This document shows, one piece after another, positions 8,777 through 19,941 of a stretch of DNA of 64,000 bases. The stretch lies in NCBI GenBank assembly GCA_027483645.1, contig JAIXUD010000021.1:248001-312000 (forward strand), read 5' to 3'. A program made the translations under genes and the position numbers. Under the pieces are notes generated by a model, which made no database searches, was not told the origin of the DNA, and saw only the letters and a program-made list of their open reading frames with translations. The stretch comes from Sphingobacteriales bacterium. GTDB lineage: Bacteria; Bacteroidota; Bacteroidia; Chitinophagales; CAIOSU01. Position 1 is the stretch's first letter. The number at the start of each line of letters is the position of its first letter.

Positions 8777-9367
8777 ATGAGCAATGGCTTAAAAATAGGT
8801 TTGGTAATACTCGTATTGATTTTGGCCTTTGCCGGTTGCGGCGGCTGCGGGTACAACTCCATCGTGAATTCTGAACTGGGTGTGGACGAGGCTTGGGCAA
8901 ACGTAGAAACCCAATACCAGCGCCGTGCTGATTTGATTCCCAACTTGGTAGCCACCATCAAAGGGTCTGGCGAGTTTGAGCAATCAACCCTTAATGGCGT
9001 TATCGAGGCGCGTAGCAAAGCTACCAGTATCAACTTAACTACCAACGACTTAACCCCAGAGAATTTGGCGAAATTTGAAGCGGCACAGGCTGAGCTGAGC
9101 TCGTCTCTTTCACGTCTATTGGTAACTGTAGAGCGCTACCCTGATTTAAAAACCACCAAAGCGTATCAAGATTTGATGGTGACGCTTGAAGGCTCGGAAA
9201 ATAGGATTACCAAAGCCCGTGAGGACTTTAATGGCGCCGTGAAAAACTACAATAGCAACGTGCGTACCTTCCCTAAAAACTTGCTTGCTGGCATATTCGG
9301 CTTCCAACCAAAAGGATCGTTCCAAGCTAAGGAAGGCGCCGAAAACGTACCTGAAGTTACTTTTTAA
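8777..9367 (+). CDS. lemA: LemA family protein
   Basis: 196 residues: an N-terminal membrane segment (MSNGLKIGLVILVLILAFAG) with a GCGGCG stretch, then the LemA signature YNSIVNSELGVDEAWANVE, QYQRRADLIPNLVATIKG and the helical ENRITKAREDFNGAVKNYN, VRTFPKN. LemA proteins are membrane-anchored helical bundles with the bulk outside or facing the periplasm, of unclear function. It heads an operon with two TPM-domain proteins (gaps of 2 bases, then an 8-base overlap), a combination widely conserved in bacteria. Confidence 0.93.
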   Translation: MSNGLKIGLVILVLILAFAGCGGCGYNSIVNSELGVDEAWANVETQYQRRADLIPNLVATIKGSGEFEQSTLNGVIEARSKATSINLTTNDLTPENLAKFEAAQAELSSSLSRLLVTVERYPDLKTTKAYQDLMVTLEGSENRITKAREDFNGAVKNYNSNVRTFPKNLLAGIFGFQPKGSFQAKEGAENVPEVTF

Positions 9368-9369
9368 CC

Positions 9370-9813
9370 ATGCCGAAAGCTAAAGATTTTTTTACCGAAG
9401 CCGAGCGCGAACAGATTGTACAAGCCATTCGCGATGCGGAGAAAGCCACTAGTGGCGAGATACGCGTTCACCTAGAAGAGCATTGCAAAGGCGAAGCGCT
9501 GGAACGTGCCATAGAGCTCTTTGCTGAGCTAAAGATGGATGCTACCGAACAACACAATGGCGTGATATTCTACCTCGCCGTGGCCGACCATAAGTTTGCC
9601 ATATATGGCGGTGCCGGCATCAACGAAAAGGTACCTGCCGACTTTTGGCAGCACACCCGCGACTTGATGCAAACGCATTTTAAAGCTGGCCGGTTTGCCC
9701 AAGGCTTATCCGAAGGCATATTATTGGCAGGGCAACAATTGAAAGCTTTTTTCCCTTATCATGACGAGGATACAAACGAATTGAATGACGATATTTCCTA
9801 CAAGCATGATTAG
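9370..9813 (+). CDS. TPM domain-containing protein (soluble, single domain)
   Basis: 147 residues, nearly all one TPM (TLP18.3/Psb32/MOLO-1) domain: FFTEAEREQIVQAIRDAEKA, TSGEIRVHLEE, NGVIFYLAVADHKFAIYGGA, GINEKVPADFW and a C-terminal helix GRFAQGLSEGILLAGQQLKA. There is no signal peptide or membrane segment, unlike the next gene. It starts two bases after lemA and overlaps the next gene. TPM domains have been tied to phosphatase-like activity and membrane-protein repair, but the role here is unproven. Confidence 0.87.
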   Translation: MPKAKDFFTEAEREQIVQAIRDAEKATSGEIRVHLEEHCKGEALERAIELFAELKMDATEQHNGVIFYLAVADHKFAIYGGAGINEKVPADFWQHTRDLMQTHFKAGRFAQGLSEGILLAGQQLKAFFPYHDEDTNELNDDISYKHD

Positions 9814-10558
9814 GGGTTTGATGATATGGGGCTTGATGCTGATGCTAACCGCATCGGTTATCGCGCAAATACCTGCACGGCCTAGCCCGCCCGTATTGGT
9901 TAATGACTTTGCAAACTTATTTTCCTCTGATCAGAAGGCTGCTCTGGAACGTAAACTGGTAGCGTTCAATGATACCAAATCGGTACAAATAGTAGTAATA
10001 ACCCAAGATGGCGTAAAGCAGGAACTGAACCAATATACTACAGAGATTGGTGAACAATGGGGTATTGGCCAGGACGGAATTGACAACGGGGTGCTGATAT
10101 TTATAGATAGAAAGAGCCGCAAATTCTACATCGCTACCGGTAGCGGTACGGAAGGCTGGCTACCTGATTTATTGGTAAGGCGCATAGAAGAGAACTATTT
10201 TGTGGAAGCATTTAGGGCAGAACAATACTATAAAGGCGTAGATGATGCTACCAATGTTATCATGGGCCTCGCAACAGGCGAATATACTGCGGAAGACGTA
10301 AAATCCCCAAAAAGCGGACAAGGTAGAAACAAATCACCATGGCGGTTTTTGCCATTTGCTTTAATACTGCTGGCATTCTTTTTCTTCCGTCGTAAGGGCG
10401 GTGGTGGCGGTCGGGGTGGCGGTATGGCTGCTGGTGGCTGGATGTTTACCGGTGGTGGCTTCGGTGGTTACTCTGGCGGCGGTGGCGGCGGCGGTGGTAG
10501 TTTCGGCGGCTTCGGCGGTGGCGGCTTTAGCGGCGGCGGTGCCGGCGGAAGCTGGTAG
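9806..10558 (+). CDS. TPM domain protein with signal peptide, TM and Gly-rich tail (YgcG-like)
   Basis: About 250 residues: a signal peptide (MIRGLMIWGLMLMLTASVIA), an extracytoplasmic TPM domain (VNDFANLFSSDQKAALERKL, QIVVITQDGV, DNGVLIFIDRKSRKFYIATG), then a basic linker, a TM helix (FLPFALILLAFFFF) and a long Gly/Ser tail. This is the YgcG architecture. The ATG at 9806 overlaps the stop of the previous gene by 8 bases, suggesting translational coupling; an ATG at 9785 would extend the signal peptide by seven residues. The glycine tail is typical of the family. Confidence 0.87.
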   Translation: MIRGLMIWGLMLMLTASVIAQIPARPSPPVLVNDFANLFSSDQKAALERKLVAFNDTKSVQIVVITQDGVKQELNQYTTEIGEQWGIGQDGIDNGVLIFIDRKSRKFYIATGSGTEGWLPDLLVRRIEENYFVEAFRAEQYYKGVDDATNVIMGLATGEYTAEDVKSPKSGQGRNKSPWRFLPFALILLAFFFFRRKGGGGGRGGGMAAGGWMFTGGGFGGYSGGGGGGGGSFGGFGGGGFSGGGAGGSW

Positions 10559-10744: not shown

Positions 10745-12070
10745 CTAAATTACTCCCACCTGAATAGTAGTATCCCCAATGGTGATGATATCCTCTGGGT
10801 GCAGCATGATGCCGCGGTCGTCTACTGGCATGGAGTTTACGAGTACGCCGTTGGTGGAGCGGTACCAGCCAGCCACATTGTCTTTAGTGCGCCACTGTCC
10901 ATCGCGTATGTACCAATAGTTGCTGGCTTTGTCGTATTCCATGGTAGCATGGAAATTGGATACGTAATTGGTGAATTGCTCCACAATGCCGATATCGTTT
11001 GAGAAAGGGCTATCCGGATTAAACCAACCCATGGTAAGCAAAGTCTTCCCTTGCAGGCGCAATAGATTGGAGAGATTGTAGGTACGGCCAATCTCGTCGC
11101 CGTTCATTACTTTCATCACCCACTGGTGGTGCGGCAATACTTGTATTTTAGGTTTTTGAAGGCTGCTATTGCTTAAGTTTAGTTTGCTGATAATGTCCTC
11201 AGAAAACTGATACCGATCGGTGGCTTCAGGCTTTAGGCACTTTTCAACTACTTCTACCCAAACCCTATCGGCGCCGCTCCGCTCAAGCGATTGGCGGTCC
11301 CACTGGCCTTGTTTCTTCCGGTTCTCGTAGCCAGCCATATCGGTCATATAGGCTTCGAAATCACCAAAGGGCATCATGCCCTTGGTAAGCAATTCATACA
11401 TCACCACGCCAAAAGCATAAATGTCATTGGTGTTGCCCATTACTTTAAACGCCTTGGTGGGGTCGCTCTGCTCTGGTGGGGAGTAGGTACCCGTTGCAAA
11501 AACTTGCTTGGCATGGCCACGGAAGTTGGTAATGGTATGGCGCTTTTTGATGGAGGCCGAAATGCCAAAATCCGCCAAGGCAGGATTATCGTTTTCGTTG
11601 AAAAGAATATTCTCCGGCTTTATATCGCGGTGGATGATACCTTTAGTATGTAGTGCTGAAAGACCCTTCAATATACCATAAGCTATACGGTTCACTTCGC
11701 TCAGTGGCAGGTTCTCCCCTACTTTATCGCGCAATGAGCCGCCTGGGCACAGGTCCATCAACATATACGGGTTGCCGCCCACGTGGTGAAAATCGTGGCT
11801 TCGCACGACATATTCCGAATCGAGGTTGCTGCCGTGCTCATACTCCTGCCTAAAGCGCTTGGCATACTCCTGTCTTTCTTGGGGCAGGAAGTTCCACATC
11901 TTGGTTATCTTCAGCGCAAGCTTTTTGCCAGTATTAGTTTCTACCAAGTAAACACTTCCAAAACCACCTTCGCCCAGTTCTTTAATGGTTTTATAGCTGC
12001 CGCGGTCGCTGGTAAATACATAGCCAGGAACGATATCGACTTTTTCAGGTGAGAAGCTGGGAGTGGTCAC
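10745..12070 (-). CDS. Ser/Thr protein kinase with C-terminal FHA domain
   Basis: The 441-residue kinase is soluble. Residues 25-300 are a Hanks-type kinase: Gly loop GEGGFGSV (33-40), Lys54 in LALK, HRDIKPEN (catalytic Asp149), ADFG (167-169), activation segment GTYSPPEQ, then DIYAFGVVMYELLTKGMMPF. The C-terminal 110 residues form an FHA-like domain with SNFHATMEYD, WYIRDGQW, NGVLVNSMPV and a closing ITIGDTTIQVG strand. All key kinase residues are present, so it should be active. It lacks the transmembrane PASTA architecture of PknB. It is the last gene of the seven-gene minus-strand cluster, two bases after the zinc-ribbon FHA gene, so the two are surely co-translated. Likely role: writer of phosphothreonines read by the cluster's FHA domains (inference). 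Confidence 0.92.
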   Translation of the reverse strand: MTTPSFSPEKVDIVPGYVFTSDRGSYKTIKELGEGGFGSVYLVETNTGKKLALKITKMWNFLPQERQEYAKRFRQEYEHGSNLDSEYVVRSHDFHHVGGNPYMLMDLCPGGSLRDKVGENLPLSEVNRIAYGILKGLSALHTKGIIHRDIKPENILFNENDNPALADFGISASIKKRHTITNFRGHAKQVFATGTYSPPEQSDPTKAFKVMGNTNDIYAFGVVMYELLTKGMMPFGDFEAYMTDMAGYENRKKQGQWDRQSLERSGADRVWVEVVEKCLKPEATDRYQFSEDIISKLNLSNSSLQKPKIQVLPHHQWVMKVMNGDEIGRTYNLSNLLRLQGKTLLTMGWFNPDSPFSNDIGIVEQFTNYVSNFHATMEYDKASNYWYIRDGQWRTKDNVAGWYRSTNGVLVNSMPVDDRGIMLHPEDIITIGDTTIQVGVI

Positions 12071-12072
12071 AA

Positions 12073-12930
12073 TTACTTGCTTTGGAAAGTATAAATGCGG
12101 TTGCCAATCAAAATCTTGGTGCCTTCGGTCAGCTCTACCTTACCGGTAACTTGAAGGAAGGTAGCGCCGTTGCTGCTGTGATCGCTCAAGTACCATTTAC
12201 CATCCTCAAACACAAACTTGGCGTGTTCTTGACCGCTGATGCTCATGTTGCCGGCATCCAGGTTATCGCGGTTAACGGATACCTCTTCGCCTGTAAACTC
12301 CTTAGCATTTTGGCTACGCTCGTCAACAAGGGCAAACTCAGGCTTTTTCTCTTCTTCCGGGCTCAAATCTCCCAAACGCATGGTTTTTTGTGCGCCTGAT
12401 GCCTTCTGTATCTGGTGGCTGGCTGCAGGTTGTGCCTGCGCCGCTGGTGTATAGGCTTCTGGCTGTTTTACGTCGGTGGCAGTTGCGTTGCCCTTATCGC
12501 CACAGTTAGGGCAAGGATGGCTTGCTGAAACCTCGTTACGCAATGGGTAGAAGCCACATGCCCCACACTTGGCTACATTGCCGGTTGCCGCTGCTCCACC
12601 GCTGCCGCTTATTACGGTTGGGTTTGATGGTGCACTGGGGCCACCGCCAGCAGGTGCTGAACTGTTCTCATCCCAAGCGGGCATATTGCTACGGTTACCA
12701 ATAACGGTTGGGTGCGAAACTCGTCCGCCAGCTGGGGGGGTAGGGTTGCTGCTGCCGCTATCCCAGGCTGGGGCCGATGCTGCACCGCCAATCATGGTTG
12801 GGTTACCACCGCCAGCATTACCTTTCGGTGCTTCGGCTCCGGCTTCGGAACCTTCCTGCTTTGAACCACATTTCTTACAAACCGCACTGCCCGGCTCGTT
12901 GGTAAATCCACATTCTTGACAACGTATCAT
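12073..12930 (-). CDS. Double zinc-ribbon, PT(M/V)I-repeat and FHA domain protein
   Basis: 285 residues without a membrane segment. Order: a zinc ribbon (Cys4, Cys7, Cys18, Cys21), a Gly/Ala/Pro-rich disordered region with three repeats (NPTMIGG, HPTVIGN, NPTVISG) whose threonines 45, 75 and 105 are exactly 30 residues apart and two of which share PAWD, a second zinc ribbon (CGACG about 122-126, CPNCG about 140-144), a linker with KTMRLGDLSPEEE, and a C-terminal FHA domain (VNRDNLDAGNMSISGQEHAK, DHSSNGATFLQ, ILIGNRIYTFQS). The repeats look like kinase substrate/FHA ligand sites, in the way GarA and Fha proteins carry Thr motifs; that is inference. It would act as a phospho-scaffold between the adjacent kinase and the FHA-proteases. 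Confidence 0.88.
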   Translation of the reverse strand: MIRCQECGFTNEPGSAVCKKCGSKQEGSEAGAEAPKGNAGGGNPTMIGGAASAPAWDSGSSNPTPPAGGRVSHPTVIGNRSNMPAWDENSSAPAGGGPSAPSNPTVISGSGGAAATGNVAKCGACGFYPLRNEVSASHPCPNCGDKGNATATDVKQPEAYTPAAQAQPAASHQIQKASGAQKTMRLGDLSPEEEKKPEFALVDERSQNAKEFTGEEVSVNRDNLDAGNMSISGQEHAKFVFEDGKWYLSDHSSNGATFLQVTGKVELTEGTKILIGNRIYTFQSK

Positions 12931-12959
12931 AGCAATTAGTTTAGTTGGTTGGGTGTATA

Positions 12960-14345
12960 TTAGCCTCGTTTACTAGTGTCTTTCGGTTCGCCACCAGGAG
13001 GGTTGATGGGGGTAAGGCCCCGTGGTTTATCAGTTTTACTGGTATCTTTTGGAGGCAATTGGTTCCTAATAGAACCAGTGGTATCCTTCGGGGGCGTTTG
13101 CGTACCCTGACCTGGGTTTTCACCAGAGGTTCCTGGAGGGGAAATACTACCAGGCCTTGGTGCGGGCCTATTAGGATTGTTAGGTGCAGATGGTGTAGCA
13201 CTGGGCGTAGTTACCGGAGCTGAAACGGGTGCAGTTACCTCTTCAATTGGTACCAATGGTTCCGTCACTGGGGTATCTATTACGGTAGTGAGAGAGGTGT
13301 CAATCGGGTTGCCCAGGCTATCCAATCCAGCCTCTTCGCCTTCTCCTGCACCCGGCTTAAGTACAAAGAACGCCGCAGCTGCTATCAAAGCAATTACTAC
13401 TATTATACCGATAATCAAACCTTTGCCTGGCCCACTTTTGGAGGCCACTGTGTTAATAGGCACAGCCCCTTTACCGATGGTAGTTTTCATCCCACCCGTA
13501 GAGGATGCACTCGATGATTCTGGACGTGTTACCGCAGGCACAGCGTTGCCATCCAATACATCCAGCAACAATACAGTAATGTTATCAGTACCGCCACCGT
13601 CGTTGGCGGCATATATCAATTCCTTGCAAGTTTCAGCAGTGCTCAAGCGGCCACTCAATATGCCGGCCAACTTGTTATCGCTTACCATACCACTCAAGCC
13701 ATCACTGCAAAGCATTACCCTATCGCCAGTATGCAATTGTACCATACGGGCATCAGGCTTCGGCGGGCGGGCCTCGTCACCAAGGCTTTGGGTTATAATG
13801 TTACTATTCTCATGCAGTCGAGCATCCTCAGGGCTTATCTGGCCAGCCTTTACCAATTCCCAAACTAACGAATGGTCATCGGTAATCGGCGAAAACTCCG
13901 CGCCATCTCGGTACAGGTACATCCGGCTGTCACCGCTCCAAGCTACATAAGCTTTATCGTTTACCACCCAGCATAACACAGCCGTGGTACCCATACCAGC
14001 AGTTGTGGGGTCTTCGTGGGTGCGGTGCACTATGTTTTGGTGCGCTTTTACTATTACCTTTTTTACCAAGTCCATCATGGCTTGGTCGCCATTGGGCATG
14101 GCGGTAATCTTTTTAAATTCTTCGTCTACAGTAGCCTGAGCAATCTCAGATGCTACTTCACCTGCATTGGTGCCACCCATGCCGTCGGCAACAAACAATA
14201 CCGCACCCAATGGGCCGAGATCAAACTGCTCGTCGCGCTTATAGGTCCAGTCTTGGCTAGCGAGGTCTTTGCATAACACAAAGTTGTCCTCGTTATGATC
14301 TCGAACTAAGCCGACATCAGTACTGCCGAAAATTTCTACTTTCAT
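12960..14345 (-). CDS. PP2C-family Ser/Thr phosphatase with TM helix and Pro-rich tail
   Basis: 461 residues. Residues 1-265 form a bacterial PP2C domain: VRDHNEDNF, FVADGMGGTNAGEVAS, GTTAVLCWV, AYVAWSGDSRMYLYR, DDHSL, LCSDGLSGMVSD and GGTDNITVLLLDV, so the metal-binding aspartates are all present. A cytoplasmic linker contains KTTIGKGAVP, resembling the PT(M/V)IG repeats of the next protein. One TM helix (about 309-329) follows. The last 130 residues are Pro/Thr/Ser-rich and would lie outside the membrane, with three PKDT(T/S) repeats near the end. It should reverse the cluster kinase. It is 9 bases after the secreted-protein gene and 29 before the zinc-ribbon gene. Confidence 0.92.
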   Translation of the reverse strand: MKVEIFGSTDVGLVRDHNEDNFVLCKDLASQDWTYKRDEQFDLGPLGAVLFVADGMGGTNAGEVASEIAQATVDEEFKKITAMPNGDQAMMDLVKKVIVKAHQNIVHRTHEDPTTAGMGTTAVLCWVVNDKAYVAWSGDSRMYLYRDGAEFSPITDDHSLVWELVKAGQISPEDARLHENSNIITQSLGDEARPPKPDARMVQLHTGDRVMLCSDGLSGMVSDNKLAGILSGRLSTAETCKELIYAANDGGGTDNITVLLLDVLDGNAVPAVTRPESSSASSTGGMKTTIGKGAVPINTVASKSGPGKGLIIGIIVVIALIAAAAFFVLKPGAGEGEEAGLDSLGNPIDTSLTTVIDTPVTEPLVPIEEVTAPVSAPVTTPSATPSAPNNPNRPAPRPGSISPPGTSGENPGQGTQTPPKDTTGSIRNQLPPKDTSKTDKPRGLTPINPPGGEPKDTSKRG

Positions 14346-14354
14346 GGGCAGGGG

Positions 14355-15137
14355 TTATTTCTTTTTTTTCTCAATAGGATTGAGGCCACTAGCAGGCGAC
14401 TGCTTAAAATCAATCGCCCTAAGTACCCATGTACCGTTTATGTTCTCATAAAAAGCTATGGGCTGGTACAATACTTTTCCAAAACTCACCTCCTCATGAA
14501 ACAACACACCGCCCAGCACATTTAACTTACCAATCAATAGGTTTTTCGGGCTAGCTATCCCTTTATCGTCCCATGTTAGGTCCATCACTTGTATTATGTT
14601 TGTCTTGGGCACTTCTCCGTCCAGTTTACCAGCATCATCAGCCATTACAATCACCAGCTTTCCTTCTTTCACATCCTTAAAGTGCTTAATCGGGAAAAAG
14701 TCGTTTTCAGCAGGTTGGTTTATCCTAGGTATTTCTGCTTGCAAATCGGCTATCTTAATCTCACTGTATTTCAAGCTATCAACCAAGCGCATTTTTAAAG
14801 CACTGGTTCGGGTGGTATAGCCCACCTTGTATGGCTCAAAATTGGGATCGCTAGAACCAGGCGTGTTAAATGTGGAAGGCAATACAATACCCTCCTTAAT
14901 CCTTACTCCTACGCTATAAACCGTACCAAAATTATCCTGATTATTAAAGCCATACTCTTTGCCGGCAGAGTCTACCACAGTATACTGCTGCTGTACTAAA
15001 TACAAGCCAGGCCCAACGGCGTTCTTAATAGTCTGGTTTCGGTCCTTAAATAAGTCCAAATCCAAACCCTTACCAGTTTGCCCTATCGCAAAGCCAGCAA
15101 TCATTAATAAAATGGAAAGTAGTAAACTTCTGTGCAT
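14355..15137 (-). CDS. Secreted protein of unknown function in the FHA-protease cluster
   Basis: 260 residues starting with a signal peptide (MHRSLLLSILLMIAGFAIGQ). The mature part is mixed alpha/beta with no family I recognise; features include LYLVQQQYTVVDSAGKEYGF, VGVRIKEGIVLPS, LVDSLKYSEIKIADLQAEIP and a C-terminal ENINGTWVLRAIDFKQ, ending in a lysine run. There are no cysteines in the mature part and no lipobox. An upstream ATG at 15167 overlaps the previous gene and precedes the signal peptide by 10 residues, so 15137 is preferred. Being secreted and embedded between three periplasmic-facing proteases and the phosphatase, it may be a partner or substrate of the proteases (inference). 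Confidence 0.75.
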   Translation of the reverse strand: MHRSLLLSILLMIAGFAIGQTGKGLDLDLFKDRNQTIKNAVGPGLYLVQQQYTVVDSAGKEYGFNNQDNFGTVYSVGVRIKEGIVLPSTFNTPGSSDPNFEPYKVGYTTRTSALKMRLVDSLKYSEIKIADLQAEIPRINQPAENDFFPIKHFKDVKEGKLVIVMADDAGKLDGEVPKTNIIQVMDLTWDDKGIASPKNLLIGKLNVLGGVLFHEEVSFGKVLYQPIAFYENINGTWVLRAIDFKQSPASGLNPIEKKKK

Positions 15138-15150
15138 GGTGGTAGTTGTG

Positions 15151-16674
15151 TTAATCAATTTCGCCAATGGGTACTATGAAGCCAATTTCGGCACCCATGC
15201 CAGCAGAAACTATACCAATTGCTCTATATCCATCGGGGGTACTTATTAATACGGGGCCACCTGAATTTCCTTGTCCGAAATTGCGGTTGGTAAGGCTAAT
15301 AGAGCCCTCTCCATTTACGCCATTTTGCGCCACTGTTGATTCGGAAAGTAAGGGTGCAACGTTGGCGCTGTTCCCGCTGCCACCCAAGCCGTATGAATAG
15401 CCTAGCACTACCACCTTATCGCCTGCTTTCAGGTTTTTAGATAATGCTCGGTCATACTTTAAGTTAGAACTCCTGCTCGTAGGCACATAGGCCCAGTCGT
15501 TGTTATCCAATGCTGCCAGTTTCACCCTTATAGTGCCGCCTTCGCCATCATCGCCTTCTATCTCTTCGTCCTTCTTATCGTTCAGCTTGGTATCCTTATA
15601 GCTAATTTGGAAGCTGTTGGTTGGCGAGGTACAATCAATCACTACATCAAACACTACTCCTTCTTGCTCCAGCGAATTCAAGAAAATCATAGCCTCTGGC
15701 GATTCCGCATTAATAAAACGCCAACCCTGTATGCAGTGGCGCGCCGTAACAAACTTACCATCATCCACCAAGAAACCGGTGCAAGTCCAACCGAAGTCAA
15801 TGGCTTCCTTTTCGCCACCACCGTAGTCCAGCTCAAACTTGCTCACACTCATAAAGTACACATTCTCCTTCACCGCATCATATACTTCTGATAGGGTTTG
15901 TCCTGATGGCGCAGTGGCCACTACGGTCACGTCCTCTTGTATTTGCCTGTTTTGCGAGCCGAGGTTTTGCACCATGGAAGCTAAGCTGGCGTTTTCGCTG
16001 CGCAGCTTTTTTAAGTCTTCCATGCTCTTAGCCTCCAAAGAGGCTATAGTTGCTTGAAATTCCTCCTTGGCACGCTTTTGCTCAGCTGCGGTAGAATCGG
16101 CCTGTGCTTGCAGTTCTTCGTTCTGCTCGGCCAATACCGTAATATCCTGGCTCTGGCGGAATATAAAAAACGCGCCTATGCTGCCCGCCACCACGAATGC
16201 CATAGCCAACCCTGCCACCGCGGCACGGTAAGGGCGCACGGCCTGTTGCATTACCAGGTTCATGCGCTGGGTTACACCCATTTTGGCCGTGCCTGTTGAG
16301 GTTACGTTGTATCGCACCCTCGGGCCTTCCAACGACAGTTGTATCTCGTCTCCGTTGTTAAGGAAGTATTGGTTTTTTACCGGCCTGCCATTTACCAGCG
16401 TAGGGTTGCTAGCACTTAGATTTTTTACTATTATATCGCTTCCGTTGCGCTCAATGGCTGCGTGCCTGCGGCTCACCGTGCCCATATCATCACTATAACT
16501 TATAGCGCAGGTGGCATCGCGGCCAAGCTCAATGTAGGGTATTACTATGGTTTCAAATGTGCCAGCCTTATGTTTGCGGCTATTGGTTAGGTGTTCAAGG
16601 GTATAAGCGGGTACATTACCACCGCCTAGCACTTTCATGCCGGTGGTAAGTGCTTTGGTTACTCTTGCTGCCAT
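15151..16674 (-). CDS. FHA-TM-coiled-coil-trypsin-like serine protease, paralogue 1
   Basis: 507 residues. An N-terminal FHA domain (about 30-130) has IELGRD, VSRRHAAIE and SNPTLVNGR, the usual phosphothreonine-binding residues. A basic QQAVRPYR precedes one TM helix (151-172), so by the positive-inside rule the FHA is cytoplasmic and the rest is outside. Residues 176-250 are a coiled coil. The protease domain (255-507) has His313 (TARHC), Asp393 (NNDWAYV) and Ser471 (GQGNSGGP), a complete trypsin-like triad. Three cysteines lie in the protease domain (TCTG, RHC, DCTS). An acidic insert (KKDEEIEGDDGEGG) precedes the Asp strand. Residue six before the Ser is Asn, against Gly in the other two copies. 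It has its own likely promoter, with a shared upstream box. The start 24 bases inside the longest frame matches the paralogues. Confidence 0.9.
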   Translation of the reverse strand: MAARVTKALTTGMKVLGGGNVPAYTLEHLTNSRKHKAGTFETIVIPYIELGRDATCAISYSDDMGTVSRRHAAIERNGSDIIVKNLSASNPTLVNGRPVKNQYFLNNGDEIQLSLEGPRVRYNVTSTGTAKMGVTQRMNLVMQQAVRPYRAAVAGLAMAFVVAGSIGAFFIFRQSQDITVLAEQNEELQAQADSTAAEQKRAKEEFQATIASLEAKSMEDLKKLRSENASLASMVQNLGSQNRQIQEDVTVVATAPSGQTLSEVYDAVKENVYFMSVSKFELDYGGGEKEAIDFGWTCTGFLVDDGKFVTARHCIQGWRFINAESPEAMIFLNSLEQEGVVFDVVIDCTSPTNSFQISYKDTKLNDKKDEEIEGDDGEGGTIRVKLAALDNNDWAYVPTSRSSNLKYDRALSKNLKAGDKVVVLGYSYGLGGSGNSANVAPLLSESTVAQNGVNGEGSISLTNRNFGQGNSGGPVLISTPDGYRAIGIVSAGMGAEIGFIVPIGEID

Positions 16675-16699
16675 AGGGTTTGTTTGTGTGTAGTACAAT

Positions 16700-16748
16700 C
16701 AAAAATACGGAAAATCCATATAGGACAAGTACGGGCTAATACTGATTT
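16700..16748 (-). promoter_or_regulatory. Promoter and conserved 20-bp upstream box of protease paralogue 1
   Basis: On the minus strand: a box AAATCAGTATTAGCCCGTAC (16748-16729), directly followed by TTG (16728-16726), 18 bases, then TATTTTTG (16707-16700). The same box with one difference precedes paralogue 3 at nearly the same distance from an identical -7 box. Its position just upstream of -33 suits an activator site, though a remnant of the duplication is an alternative. Confidence 0.6.
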
Positions 16749-16779
16749 TCACCCAGCTAAAAACAATCGCCCTATAGAT

Positions 16780-18297
16780 TTAGGGTACCTCTGCAATCGG
16801 TACCAAAAACCCTAAATCGCCTATACCCATGCTGGTGGGGCTCCATGATACAATTCCGACAACCTTATATTCCCCGTTTACTTTGGTAAATAAAGGGCCG
16901 CCAGAGTTACCACTGCCCCAGCCTTTGTTGCTCACGCTAATGTTTCCAGCGGCAGTAAGGCCATTTTGAGCTACGGTTGCCTCCCCAATAAGCGGAGAAA
17001 CCTCGTTGGTATTGCCGCTGCCACCAAAACCATTGGTATAACCCAATGCAAACACTTTTGAGCCAGCCTTCATATTTTTTGATAGCTCCTCATCAAACTT
17101 AAGCCCACCGCTCTCTTTTGTTTTTACATAGGCCCAATCATACTTATCCATGCCGGCAAGCATTACTTGCCCTTCCATACCCTGGTCGGCTAAGTCTTCT
17201 TTAATATCGTGGCTGTCATCAACCAAAAAATCCTTGTAACGAAAAGTAAATTGATTGGTTGGCGAAGTACACCTAAACTCTACATCGAACTGCACACCAG
17301 CCTGCTCCAAGGCATTAATAATTATATTATCGCCCTGTGGCTGAAACCGCCAGCCCTGCACGCAGTGCCTAGCGGTAACAAAATTGCCGTTATCTATTAA
17401 AAAGCCTGTGCACAACCAACCCATCGGTACTTCTTCAACAGAACCATCAGGAAAAATAAGGTTGAACTTTACGATATCCATAAAATACACGTTGCCTTTC
17501 AGCTGCTCATAAACTGCTGTCAGTTCATCGCTGGCATTGGGCGGTGCAGTAGCCAGCATGGTTACATCACTCAATAGTTGCTGGTTTTGGGCACTTAGGC
17601 TGTTCAGTTTACTTTTGAGGCTAGTATTTTTTTCTGATAAGGCAGCGATGGCATTGTCACCATTCTTCTTCATATCGGCTATGGTAGCATCAAATGCAGC
17701 TTTGGTTTGGTAAGTTGCGGTTAGCAAAGAATCCGACCGAGTGTCGAGCTCTTGGTTCTTTTGTGCCACACCCGATAAGCCTTGATATGTAAAAAACCCG
17801 CCAACGGCTGATAAGAGTATTACCACGGCTACCATGCTCACAACGGCGGCACGGTATGGCCGCACGGCTTGCTGCATTACCAAATTCATCCGACGGGTTA
17901 CCCCCATTTGCGCCGTACCTGTTGAAGATAGGTTGAAGCGCATGCGAGGGCCCTCAGCCGAAAGCTGTATCTCATCTCCATTTTGTAGGAAATAAGTACT
18001 TTTTACAATGCGGCCATTAACCAGCGTAGCGTTGCTTGTAGATAGGCTTTTAAGCACTACATCGTTTCCGCTGCGCTCTATGGCTGCGTGCTTACGGCTT
18101 ACTGTAGCCATATCGTCACCAAAGCTCACGGCATTGTTGCCAGCCCTACCCAACTCAATGTAGGGGATGATGATGGTATCAAAAGAGCCTGCTGGGTGCT
18201 TTCGGGTGTTGGTAAGGTGCTCAAGTGTATAGGCTGCCACGTTGCCACCGCCTAGCACTTTCATGCCTGTAGTTAATGCCTGTGATGCTCCTGCCAT
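16780..18297 (-). CDS. FHA-TM-coiled-coil-trypsin-like serine protease, paralogue 2
   Basis: 505 residues with the same layout as its neighbours: an FHA domain with IELGRAG, VSRKHAAIE and SNATLVNGR, a basic QQAVRPYR, a TM helix (150-170), a coiled coil (176-248), and a protease domain with His311 (TARHC), Asp387 (KYDWAYV) and Ser465 (GSGNSGGP). Cysteines match paralogue 1 (LCTG, RHC, RCTS). The FHA loop has GRAG instead of GRD and N-A-T instead of N-P-T, small changes near the phosphothreonine site. No promoter box is found in the 57-base gap to paralogue 3, so the two are probably co-transcribed. The coiled coil may set oligomer state (inference). Confidence 0.9.
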   Translation of the reverse strand: MAGASQALTTGMKVLGGGNVAAYTLEHLTNTRKHPAGSFDTIIIPYIELGRAGNNAVSFGDDMATVSRKHAAIERSGNDVVLKSLSTSNATLVNGRIVKSTYFLQNGDEIQLSAEGPRMRFNLSSTGTAQMGVTRRMNLVMQQAVRPYRAAVVSMVAVVILLSAVGGFFTYQGLSGVAQKNQELDTRSDSLLTATYQTKAAFDATIADMKKNGDNAIAALSEKNTSLKSKLNSLSAQNQQLLSDVTMLATAPPNASDELTAVYEQLKGNVYFMDIVKFNLIFPDGSVEEVPMGWLCTGFLIDNGNFVTARHCVQGWRFQPQGDNIIINALEQAGVQFDVEFRCTSPTNQFTFRYKDFLVDDSHDIKEDLADQGMEGQVMLAGMDKYDWAYVKTKESGGLKFDEELSKNMKAGSKVFALGYTNGFGGSGNTNEVSPLIGEATVAQNGLTAAGNISVSNKGWGSGNSGGPLFTKVNGEYKVVGIVSWSPTSMGIGDLGFLVPIAEVP

Positions 18298-18354
18298 TGG
18301 TAGTAGGTTAGGGTGATTGATGACGATAAAGGTTAAGAAATGCCTGCGTGGTTA

Positions 18355-19869
18355 TTATTTAACTTCGGCAATAGGTACCAAAAAGCCAATGTCGCCTTTA
18401 ATATGAGGGCCCCATGATACAATGCCTACCACCACATAATCGCTACCGCGCTTTGTAAGTACTGGGCCGCCTGAGTTGCCTGCACCCCAGCCTTTGCTGG
18501 TTACGCTTATATTGCCATCAGCAGTTACCCCCGATTGGCCAACCGTAGCCTCACCTAGCATAGGCGAAACCTGGTTAGTATTGCTACTAGAACCATAACC
18601 CTGTGTAAAGCCTAATGCAAATACTTTGGTAGCTGCCTTCATTTTCAAAGAAAGATCTTTATCGAATTTCATACCACCTTTTTGGGTAGTTTGTACATAA
18701 GCCCAATCATATCTATCCATTGGGGCAACCATAGAAACACCAGGTACACCCTCTTCGTAATCTTCAATCAGCTGGTCGTTCTTGTCGTTGTAAATAAAAT
18801 CTTTGTACGATACCGTAAATTGGTTATTGGGCGATGTGCAACGGAAATCGACATTGATTACCAAACCCTGCTGCTCCATCATATTGAGCGTGTTCACCCC
18901 CCCAGAAGGTTCAAAGCGCCACCCCTGCACGCAGTGCCGTGCGGTAATAAACTTACCATCATCGGTAAGAAAGCCTGTGCCGGTCCAGCCAAAGTCCAAT
19001 TCTTCCTTTGCGCCATCAGGCCATATTATTTCGAAACGGGTTACTTCAAAATAGTAAACATCGTTTTTCAACACTTCATAAGCGGCCACTAATTCTGCGT
19101 TAGCATCTTTAGGGGCTGCGGAGAGAACGGTTACATCCTCCATCAACTTCCTGTTCTGGGCGCTTAAGTTATTGAGCCTGCCAGTAAGCGCATCATTGTT
19201 TTTACCCAACTCGGCCAATGCGGAATCGCTTTGGCTCCTCACGGCAGCAAGATTGGCCTCAAATTCTTGTTTTGCTTTTATCTGTGCTAGTTCCAGAGAG
19301 TCTGTCTTACCCACCAGTACTTGATTGTCTGCATTTAAATCGGTTACTTTCCAATATGTTAAAGTACCGCCCAAACCAGCAATAACCACAATCATCGCAG
19401 CCAAACCAGCCACAGCAGCGCGGTAAGGCTTCACTGCCTGCTGCATCACTAGGTTCATCCTTTGTGTAACGCCCATTTTGGCGGTACCGGTTGCCGAACG
19501 GTTGAAACGCAGGCGCGGGCCTTCCATAGAAAGCTGAATCTCGTCGCCATTGTTTAGAAAGTATTCCGCTTTTACGGGCCTACTGTTTACCAATGTAGGG
19601 TTGCTGGTGGATAGGTTTTTGATAATAATGTCCTCTCCACGGCGCTCAATGGCGGCGTGCTTTCGGCTTACCGTGCCCATGTCATCGCCATAACTTATGG
19701 CGTTGGTGCCATCACGCCCCAACTCAATGTAGGGGATAATAATGGTTTCGAATGACCCTGCAGGGTGCTTGCGGGTATTGGATAAGTGCTCTAGCGTGTA
19801 TGCCGGCACATTGCCCCCACCCATTACTTTCATTCCGGTGGTAAGGGCTTGGGTTACTTTAGCTGCCAT
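18355..19869 (-). CDS. FHA-TM-coiled-coil-trypsin-like serine protease, paralogue 3 (first gene of cluster)
   Basis: 504 residues with the same domain order: FHA (IELGRD, VSRKHAAIE, SNPTLVNSR with Ser replacing the usual Gly), QQAVKPYR, a TM helix (151-172), a coiled coil (176-250), and a protease with His312 (TARHC), Asp388 (RYDWAYV) and Ser466 (GAGNSGGP). It lacks the cysteine that both paralogues have before the His (TGTG instead of C-T-G), keeping only RHC and RCTS, which suggests these two form the common disulfide. The triad is intact. Its upstream region carries a perfect -7 box and the 20-bp element shared with paralogue 1. As the 5'-most gene it probably drives the full operon. Confidence 0.9.
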   Translation of the reverse strand: MAAKVTQALTTGMKVMGGGNVPAYTLEHLSNTRKHPAGSFETIIIPYIELGRDGTNAISYGDDMGTVSRKHAAIERRGEDIIIKNLSTSNPTLVNSRPVKAEYFLNNGDEIQLSMEGPRLRFNRSATGTAKMGVTQRMNLVMQQAVKPYRAAVAGLAAMIVVIAGLGGTLTYWKVTDLNADNQVLVGKTDSLELAQIKAKQEFEANLAAVRSQSDSALAELGKNNDALTGRLNNLSAQNRKLMEDVTVLSAAPKDANAELVAAYEVLKNDVYYFEVTRFEIIWPDGAKEELDFGWTGTGFLTDDGKFITARHCVQGWRFEPSGGVNTLNMMEQQGLVINVDFRCTSPNNQFTVSYKDFIYNDKNDQLIEDYEEGVPGVSMVAPMDRYDWAYVQTTQKGGMKFDKDLSLKMKAATKVFALGFTQGYGSSSNTNQVSPMLGEATVGQSGVTADGNISVTSKGWGAGNSGGPVLTKRGSDYVVVGIVSWGPHIKGDIGFLVPIAEVK

Positions 19870-19891
19870 AGTTTATAAGTAGTTGCAGCAT

Positions 19892-19941
19892 CAAAAATAG
19901 ATTAAAATGTGATGTGAAGCTGTACGGGTTAATACTGATTT
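19892..19941 (-). promoter_or_regulatory. Promoter and conserved 20-bp upstream box of protease paralogue 3
   Basis: The minus strand carries AAATCAGTATTAACCCGTAC (19941-19922), 22 bases, then TATTTTTG (19899-19892), 22 bases before the start codon. The box matches paralogue 1 in 19 of 20 positions, while the DNA between box and -7 is not conserved. No TTG lies at -33, which fits a promoter needing an activator. Confidence 0.6.

Follow-up and report, generated by a model that had tools for sequence, protein, structure and literature searches.

A conserved Bacteroidota operon encoding a Ser/Thr kinase, a PP2C phosphatase and FHA-linked HtrA-like proteases predicted to span the membrane

Modules made up of a kinase, a phosphatase and an FHA reader are known for secretion machines and intracellular enzymes; we found none described in which the reader is built into a periplasmic protease. 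The threonine phosphorylation pathway of type VI secretion (T6SS), PpkA/PppA/Fha, is a post-translational switch (PMC3953482, PMC5995506). The KKP module, found mostly on prophages, consists of an adjacent PP2C phosphatase and two kinases, one with an FHA domain, and its PfkA carries a cold-shock domain (PMC11341870). Trypsin-like peptidases, PP2C, kinases and occasional FHA domains also share operons in the vWA-PP2C-kinase and trypsin-containing conflict systems, which have NTPase/vWA/MoxR or GTPase cores (PMC7159879). The text of a survey of ion motors mentions neither FHA domains nor proteases (PMC12505986). FHA and trypsin domains have been recorded in one polypeptide: the entry for Bacteroides thetaiotaomicron NP_811686.1 in a 2008 survey lists, once, an FHA-FHA-trypsin architecture (PMC2605481).

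The operon described here is composed of known parts, and its gene set is conserved yet apparently undescribed. In the open-licence literature we found no publication on the operon, on FHA combined with HtrA, or on the presumed B. thetaiotaomicron locus tags; it is possible that a description exists which we have not seen.

Seven genes on one strand

The window, i.e. the whole stretch of 64,000 nucleotides that was analysed, belongs to a Sphingobacteriales assembly of 4.27 Mb and 98% completeness. Between positions 10745 and 19869 it contains seven genes on the minus strand, in the order TRY1, TRY2, TRY3, SEC, PP2C, ZF, PK:

18355-19869, minus strand: TRY1, with FHA (aa 49-113), predicted TM helix (about 145-163), coiled coil and HtrA-like protease (about 255-504; triad H312, D388, S466). 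Evidence: Pfam FHA 6.1e-12, Trypsin 2e-09; structural model (pLDDT 87.7); conservation; topology.
16780-18297, minus strand: TRY2, paralogue of TRY1 with identical architecture. Evidence: Pfam; 60% identity to TRY1; BLAST to loci L020-L022.
15151-16674, minus strand: TRY3, third paralogue. Evidence: Pfam; comparison with TRY1; BLAST to the second copy of the same genus (78%).
14355-15137, minus strand: SEC, secreted protein of 260 aa with a predicted HtrA/trypsin fold lacking the catalytic triad. Evidence: model pLDDT 89.0; Foldseek 8.8e-05 to HtrA1; Z 13.0 to DegP; triad unconserved.
12960-14345, minus strand: PP2C phosphatase with one predicted TM helix (aa 310-328) and a Pro/Thr-rich periplasmic tail. 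Evidence: PP2C_2 1.8e-14; Stp1-like 8.9e-66, which is under the cut-off; TM prediction.
12073-12930, minus strand: ZF, soluble protein with zinc ribbon, Thr-motif linker and C-terminal FHA. Evidence: FHA 1.8e-04, above cut-off; DZR 2.7e-04, below cut-off; Thr motifs at aa 43, 73, 103 and 181; conserved family.
10745-12070, minus strand: PK, soluble Hanks-type Ser/Thr kinase with C-terminal FHA and a GTG start. Evidence: Pkinase 4.7e-43, FHA 3.9e-06; HRD/DFG motifs.

From TRY1 to PK the successive gaps are 57, 105, 13, 9, 29 and 2 bp. Pfam and the coordinates agree with the sequence-only reading, which had described seven same-strand genes with these domains, separated by 2 to 105 bp; SEC has no Pfam match. 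The start of the first gene, placed there at 19941, had to be corrected to 19869. SEC and TRY3 start with the ATG codons at 15137 and 16674, respectively; the longer ORFs begin with TTG.

The sequence TATTTTTG (19892-19899, minus strand), located 23 bp before TRY1, is a single, short and weak match to TAnnTTTG, the -7 promoter consensus of Bacteroides. A LemA gene and two TPM-domain genes (8777-10558, plus strand) converge on the 3' end of the operon; we saw no such genes adjoining the operon in relatives. No tRNA was found in the window.

Predicted membrane proteases and a secreted pseudo-protease

All three TRY paralogues contain FHA (1.3e-13 to 6.1e-12) and Trypsin/Trypsin_2 domains in the Pfam scan. 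TRY2 and TRY3 are 60% and 57% identical to TRY1, and TARH, DWA and GNSGGP are kept by all of them. TARHC, DWAY and GNSGGP are intact throughout, as had been claimed of the His/Asp/Ser triads. The first copy of the same-genus genomes is matched by TRY1 as well as TRY2, the second by TRY3 at 78%. All 61 TRY homologues share the FHA pocket residues G51, R52, S68, H71, N90 and N95 without exception, and the triad is nearly invariant (H 60/61, D 61/61, S 60/61), hence reading and cutting both appear to be under selection within one protein.

The model of TRY1 (pLDDT 87.7, pTM 0.53, with uncertain domain arrangement) has one continuous helix from residue 134 to 245. Structure comparison of the model suggests that the FHA fold resembles GarA and that the protease fold is nearest to DegQ/DegS (DegQ 4ynn_A, Z 21.0, 2.2 Å over 176 residues). 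The Pfam scan detected no PDZ domain, and the protein ends with the protease domain. A single TM helix is predicted, whose FHA-side flank is the more positive one in 82 of 83 proteins; from this charge bias the FHA domain is predicted to be cytoplasmic and the protease periplasmic, in line with the earlier proposal that the proteases lie across the membrane from FHA. A conserved disulphide was considered as a sign of periplasmic location and dropped, because no more than 13 of 61 homologues have the Cys pair and in TRY1 itself one of the partners is missing. A passive spacer role for the coiled coil is conceivable.

SEC has no Pfam family, and its sequence does not meaningfully match any solved structure. 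Its model (pLDDT 89.0) matches HtrA proteases, with a Foldseek E-value of 8.8e-05 to HtrA1 and a Z-score of 13.0 to DegP (3.8 Å over 176 residues), and residues 35-100 give a weak profile match (E 0.0022, probability 13%) to the catalytic-His region of the proteases. No conserved catalytic His or Ser was found at the matching columns in 56 SEC homologues; at the place of GNSGG there is a GG preceded by Leu, Ile or Val, an equivalence which is our own reading. Gln 20, downstream of the signal-like N-terminus, is invariant. With moderate confidence we take SEC for a secreted pseudo-protease with an HtrA fold lacking the triad, and prefer this to the description in the sequence-only reading, a secreted protein of unknown function.

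Conservation, genomic setting and variable parts

All five FHA domains detected in this genome, and its only detected PP2C_2 domain, are inside the operon. Since these domains are all located here and the set recurs across Bacteroidota, the clustering of the seven genes is far beyond chance. All four of the other genomes of the genus carry FHA-TM-protease genes, as do two genomes from a different family of the order and two further ones among phylum samples of 296 and 395. When named genomes were scanned, 80 loci were obtained, nearly all from Bacteroidota; a Gaiellaceae bin and a Clostridia bin among them are probably mis-binned. In the clustered loci, the window included, the protease was found in at least 79, kinases in 78, PP2C in 76, ZF in 71 and SEC in 59, all of these counts being lower bounds: in genome G277, for example, ORF calling hid the kinase, whose FHA lies at C16:18806. 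The typical order is ZF-PK-(MotB-ExbB)-TRY-SEC-PP2C-kinase in Bacteroidales and (ExbB-MotB)-TRY-SEC-PP2C-ZF-PK in Chitinophagales. TRY, PP2C, ZF and PK occur together in at least 33 of the 37 well-flanked loci, which agrees with the expectation that the genes stay together in related genomes. The co-occurrence of SEC with TRY, which had been proposed as a check, is complete: of 61 relatives, the 7 with SEC are precisely the 7 with TRY. Among the FHA matches of six TRY-bearing relatives only one falls outside the operon; it belongs to a kinase-sized frame on a different contig, in a fragmented assembly. FHA is lacking in seven of nine relatives without TRY. The pairwise divergences of five families correlate (r 0.71-0.86), to which shared species history contributes. 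The gene set is a real conserved unit.

The system is patchily distributed among relatives. In the same-genus genomes the cluster is at another chromosomal place, thus the flanks are not conserved: in two of them OdhB is found about 75 kb from the operon, which has other neighbours, and in the window genome coaD lies at the contig edge.

Three Hanks kinases score above cut-off in the genome: PK and two TM kinases encoded elsewhere, one on contig 12 with the architecture kinase-TM-TPR-ankyrin and one on contig 1 with kinase-TM-repeat (repeat names read from the sequence). The latter two look like the receptor-like second kinases of related operons. PK has the catalytic motifs HRD/DFG and PP2C the metal-binding motifs. 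In the FHA domain of PK the columns G348, S371 and N407 are invariant and R349 is kept in 53 of 69 homologues. The TM-kinase (PK2) family (e.g. L058:8010-9803) is unusual in that HQD replaces HRD in the catalytic loop of 53 of 70 second kinases. L085:6648-10292 and L094:14949-18731 encode kinase-TM proteins of ~1200 aa with many RHS/MORN-like repeats outside the membrane.

The motif R/K-x-T-[QEVMRI] was more frequent with Thr than with Ser in the linkers of ZF (67/623 vs. 19/879), of TM kinases (33/242 vs. 13/283) and of FHA-TM proteins (15/68 vs. 4/111); PP2C did not show this excess. In the window genome, ZF has four such motifs, PP2C has MKTTIGKG, and the TM kinases have RGRSTERFD and MGRKTEVIA. 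The receptor-like TM kinases and the recurring Thr motifs suggest what the FHA domains may read. It must be noted that the motif was refined after inspection and many of the counted sites are homologous, hence it is only a lead.

An ExbB/MotB-like motor is an optional part of the system. About a fifth of the loci, 16 each, have an ExbB-family protein and a MotB-like protein adjoining the protease; the MotB-like protein starts with INxFxxSFLDLLSGAL, carries an invariant Asp in its TM helix as well as a coiled coil, and varies at the C-terminus. The B subunit of L039:5712-7618, L053:8334-9967 and some 14 further loci has vWA or another domain at its end, not OmpA. The operon-type pair is absent from the window and its genome. 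One of the genome's own ExbB genes matches the operon ExbB profile weakly (E 2.6e-4); the neighbours of these genes resemble ordinary ExbD-type partners, and we rejected them as the missing motor.

A tyrosine recombinase precedes the operon in L055, L097 and L103. The upstream gap of these loci contains perfect inverted repeats, 15-20 bp long and separated by 147-181 bp; they share the core CTCTTNNNAAGAG, and their spacer is inverted. Two copies of the extended core are found in L097, against a mean of 0.08 in shuffles, and L095 has a similar pair with a variant core. The sites just upstream of the operon are:

L055:3717-3903, inverted-repeat site.
L097:7623-7837, inverted-repeat site.
L103:1779-1964, inverted-repeat site.
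L095:508-697, inverted-repeat site.

Invertible promoters in Bacteroidales are documented in published papers, and the recombinase with its repeats is likely to constitute a phase switch of this kind in some Bacteroidales loci. No inverted repeats were found upstream of the window operon.

Candidate mechanism, alternatives and relation to known systems

We propose, with a probability of about 0.5, that the operon is a transmembrane phospho-switch for periplasmic proteolysis. The soluble PK and the two unlinked receptor-like TM kinases, with their periplasmic repeat domains, would phosphorylate threonines in flexible linkers of ZF and the TM kinases, and perhaps also in PP2C. The resulting phosphothreonines would be docking sites for the FHA domains of the TRY proteases, and docking might cluster or re-orient the continuous TM/coiled-coil helix and so activate or position the periplasmic HtrA-like protease. 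The triad-less SEC may act in the periplasm as partner, inhibitor or decoy, the membrane-bound PP2C would remove the phosphothreonine mark, and in some lineages the ExbB/MotB-like proton-motor pair may join in. The likely job would be conditional quality control of envelope proteins or surface remodelling upon a periplasmic cue. The presence of writer, eraser and readers in one operon counts for this reading; the replacement of the FHA pocket Arg of PK by Trp in the clade of the window, and the Gln that most ZF members have at the position of the pocket His, count against it. The gene set and the predicted topology fit the inside-out circuit of the sequence-only reading, which was incomplete: the two unlinked kinases are missing from it, and so are the optional motor and the candidate phase-variable promoters, both features of other loci.

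It is also conceivable that the FHA domain does no more than guide a constitutively active protease towards phosphorylated receptor kinases or PP2C, whose periplasmic parts would be cut, ending or resetting the signal, and that the main output is cytoplasmic, via ZF and the kinases. The TM kinases and PP2C do carry large, variable periplasmic regions and have Thr motifs in their juxtamembrane linkers, but cleavage of these proteins is hypothetical and ZF has no output domain, DNA-binding or enzymatic, recognisable by Pfam scan; we regard such receptor shedding as somewhat unlikely. Anti-phage defence, in which a KKP-like kinase/phosphatase or a Zorya-like membrane-motor trigger would unleash envelope proteolysis and kill or protect the infected cell, seems to us unlikely. 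The patchy distribution, the optional ExbB/MotB pair, the likely phase-variable promoters of some loci and the differing chromosomal place within one genus would suit it, but the neighbours of the window operon are housekeeping genes, PADLOC recognises in the core only generic kinases or proteases, and the 133 flanking proteins include only few, scattered single defence families, so we rejected the defence-island reading; a mobile element was likewise rejected, as no copies were found among phages, plasmids and viral contigs.

The kinase/PP2C/FHA logic is shared with the T6SS pathway, and the operon might control a secretion or surface machine in a similar manner, its protease maturing surface proteins. 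We consider this improbable, since the main sheath gene VipB/TssC (PF05943) is absent from the whole genome, which extends the earlier remark that no T6SS gene is here, and no secretion genes recur in the loci. That the seven genes are accidental neighbours that do no joint work could be argued from the different location of the cluster and its unconserved flanks in the same genus, but conservation across several orders, correlated divergence and all-or-none presence leave this idea practically no credibility.

Should the phospho-switch be confirmed, proteolysis would here be switched from the inside out, in the opposite sense to the outside-in signalling of the DegS type, and threonine phosphorylation would gain a clear job in Bacteroidota. 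More tentatively, the operon may represent a new class of transmembrane signalling, in which an FHA domain reads cytoplasmic phosphothreonine and, being joined by a single helix to the HtrA-type protease in the periplasm, gates proteolysis directly across the membrane. A secreted pseudo-protease would serve as regulator, a proton-driven motor would be optional, and an invertible promoter would make the switch phase-variable in some Bacteroidales; we find this doubtful in its entirety. The set is small (one PP2C, few kinases and a single operon for every FHA domain detected), which makes it testable by simple deletions and co-expression.

TRY shares its protease fold and triad with DegS/DegP/HtrA. 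DegS consists of one N-terminal TM helix and a periplasmic protease, an arrangement also predicted for TRY; TRY differs in having no PDZ domain and in possessing a putatively cytoplasmic FHA domain and a long coiled coil instead. Like the T6SS pathway, the operon encodes a Ser/Thr kinase, a PP2C and an FHA reader together, as a putative switch on a membrane machine, but its reader is fused to a protease predicted to be periplasmic and the genome lacks the T6SS sheath gene. It resembles KKP in having PK-FHA, PP2C and, in relatives, often a second kinase, whereas KKP has no protease and zinc-ribbon genes, and the window operon has one kinase, no CSD (Pfam) and no copies on phages. With the ExbB/TolQ/MotA and MotB motors, including Zorya (PMC12505986), the 16 related loci share an ExbB-family protein and a MotB-like protein with the invariant TM Asp; the pair is absent from the window genome, and the B subunit of the related loci ends in vWA or another domain. 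The operon combines trypsin-like peptidases, PP2C, kinase and FHA as the conflict systems do, but their NTPase/vWA/MoxR/GTPase cores are absent from it in the Pfam scan (PMC7159879). It differs from the TerY-P/vWA-PP2C-kinase triads in that none of the seven proteins has a vWA domain, a vWA-like end being found on the MotB-like protein of some relatives. NP_811686.1 has, like TRY, FHA N-terminal to trypsin, but its entry in the 2008 survey gives the architecture alone, with no operon, topology, pseudo-protease or circuit (PMC2605481).
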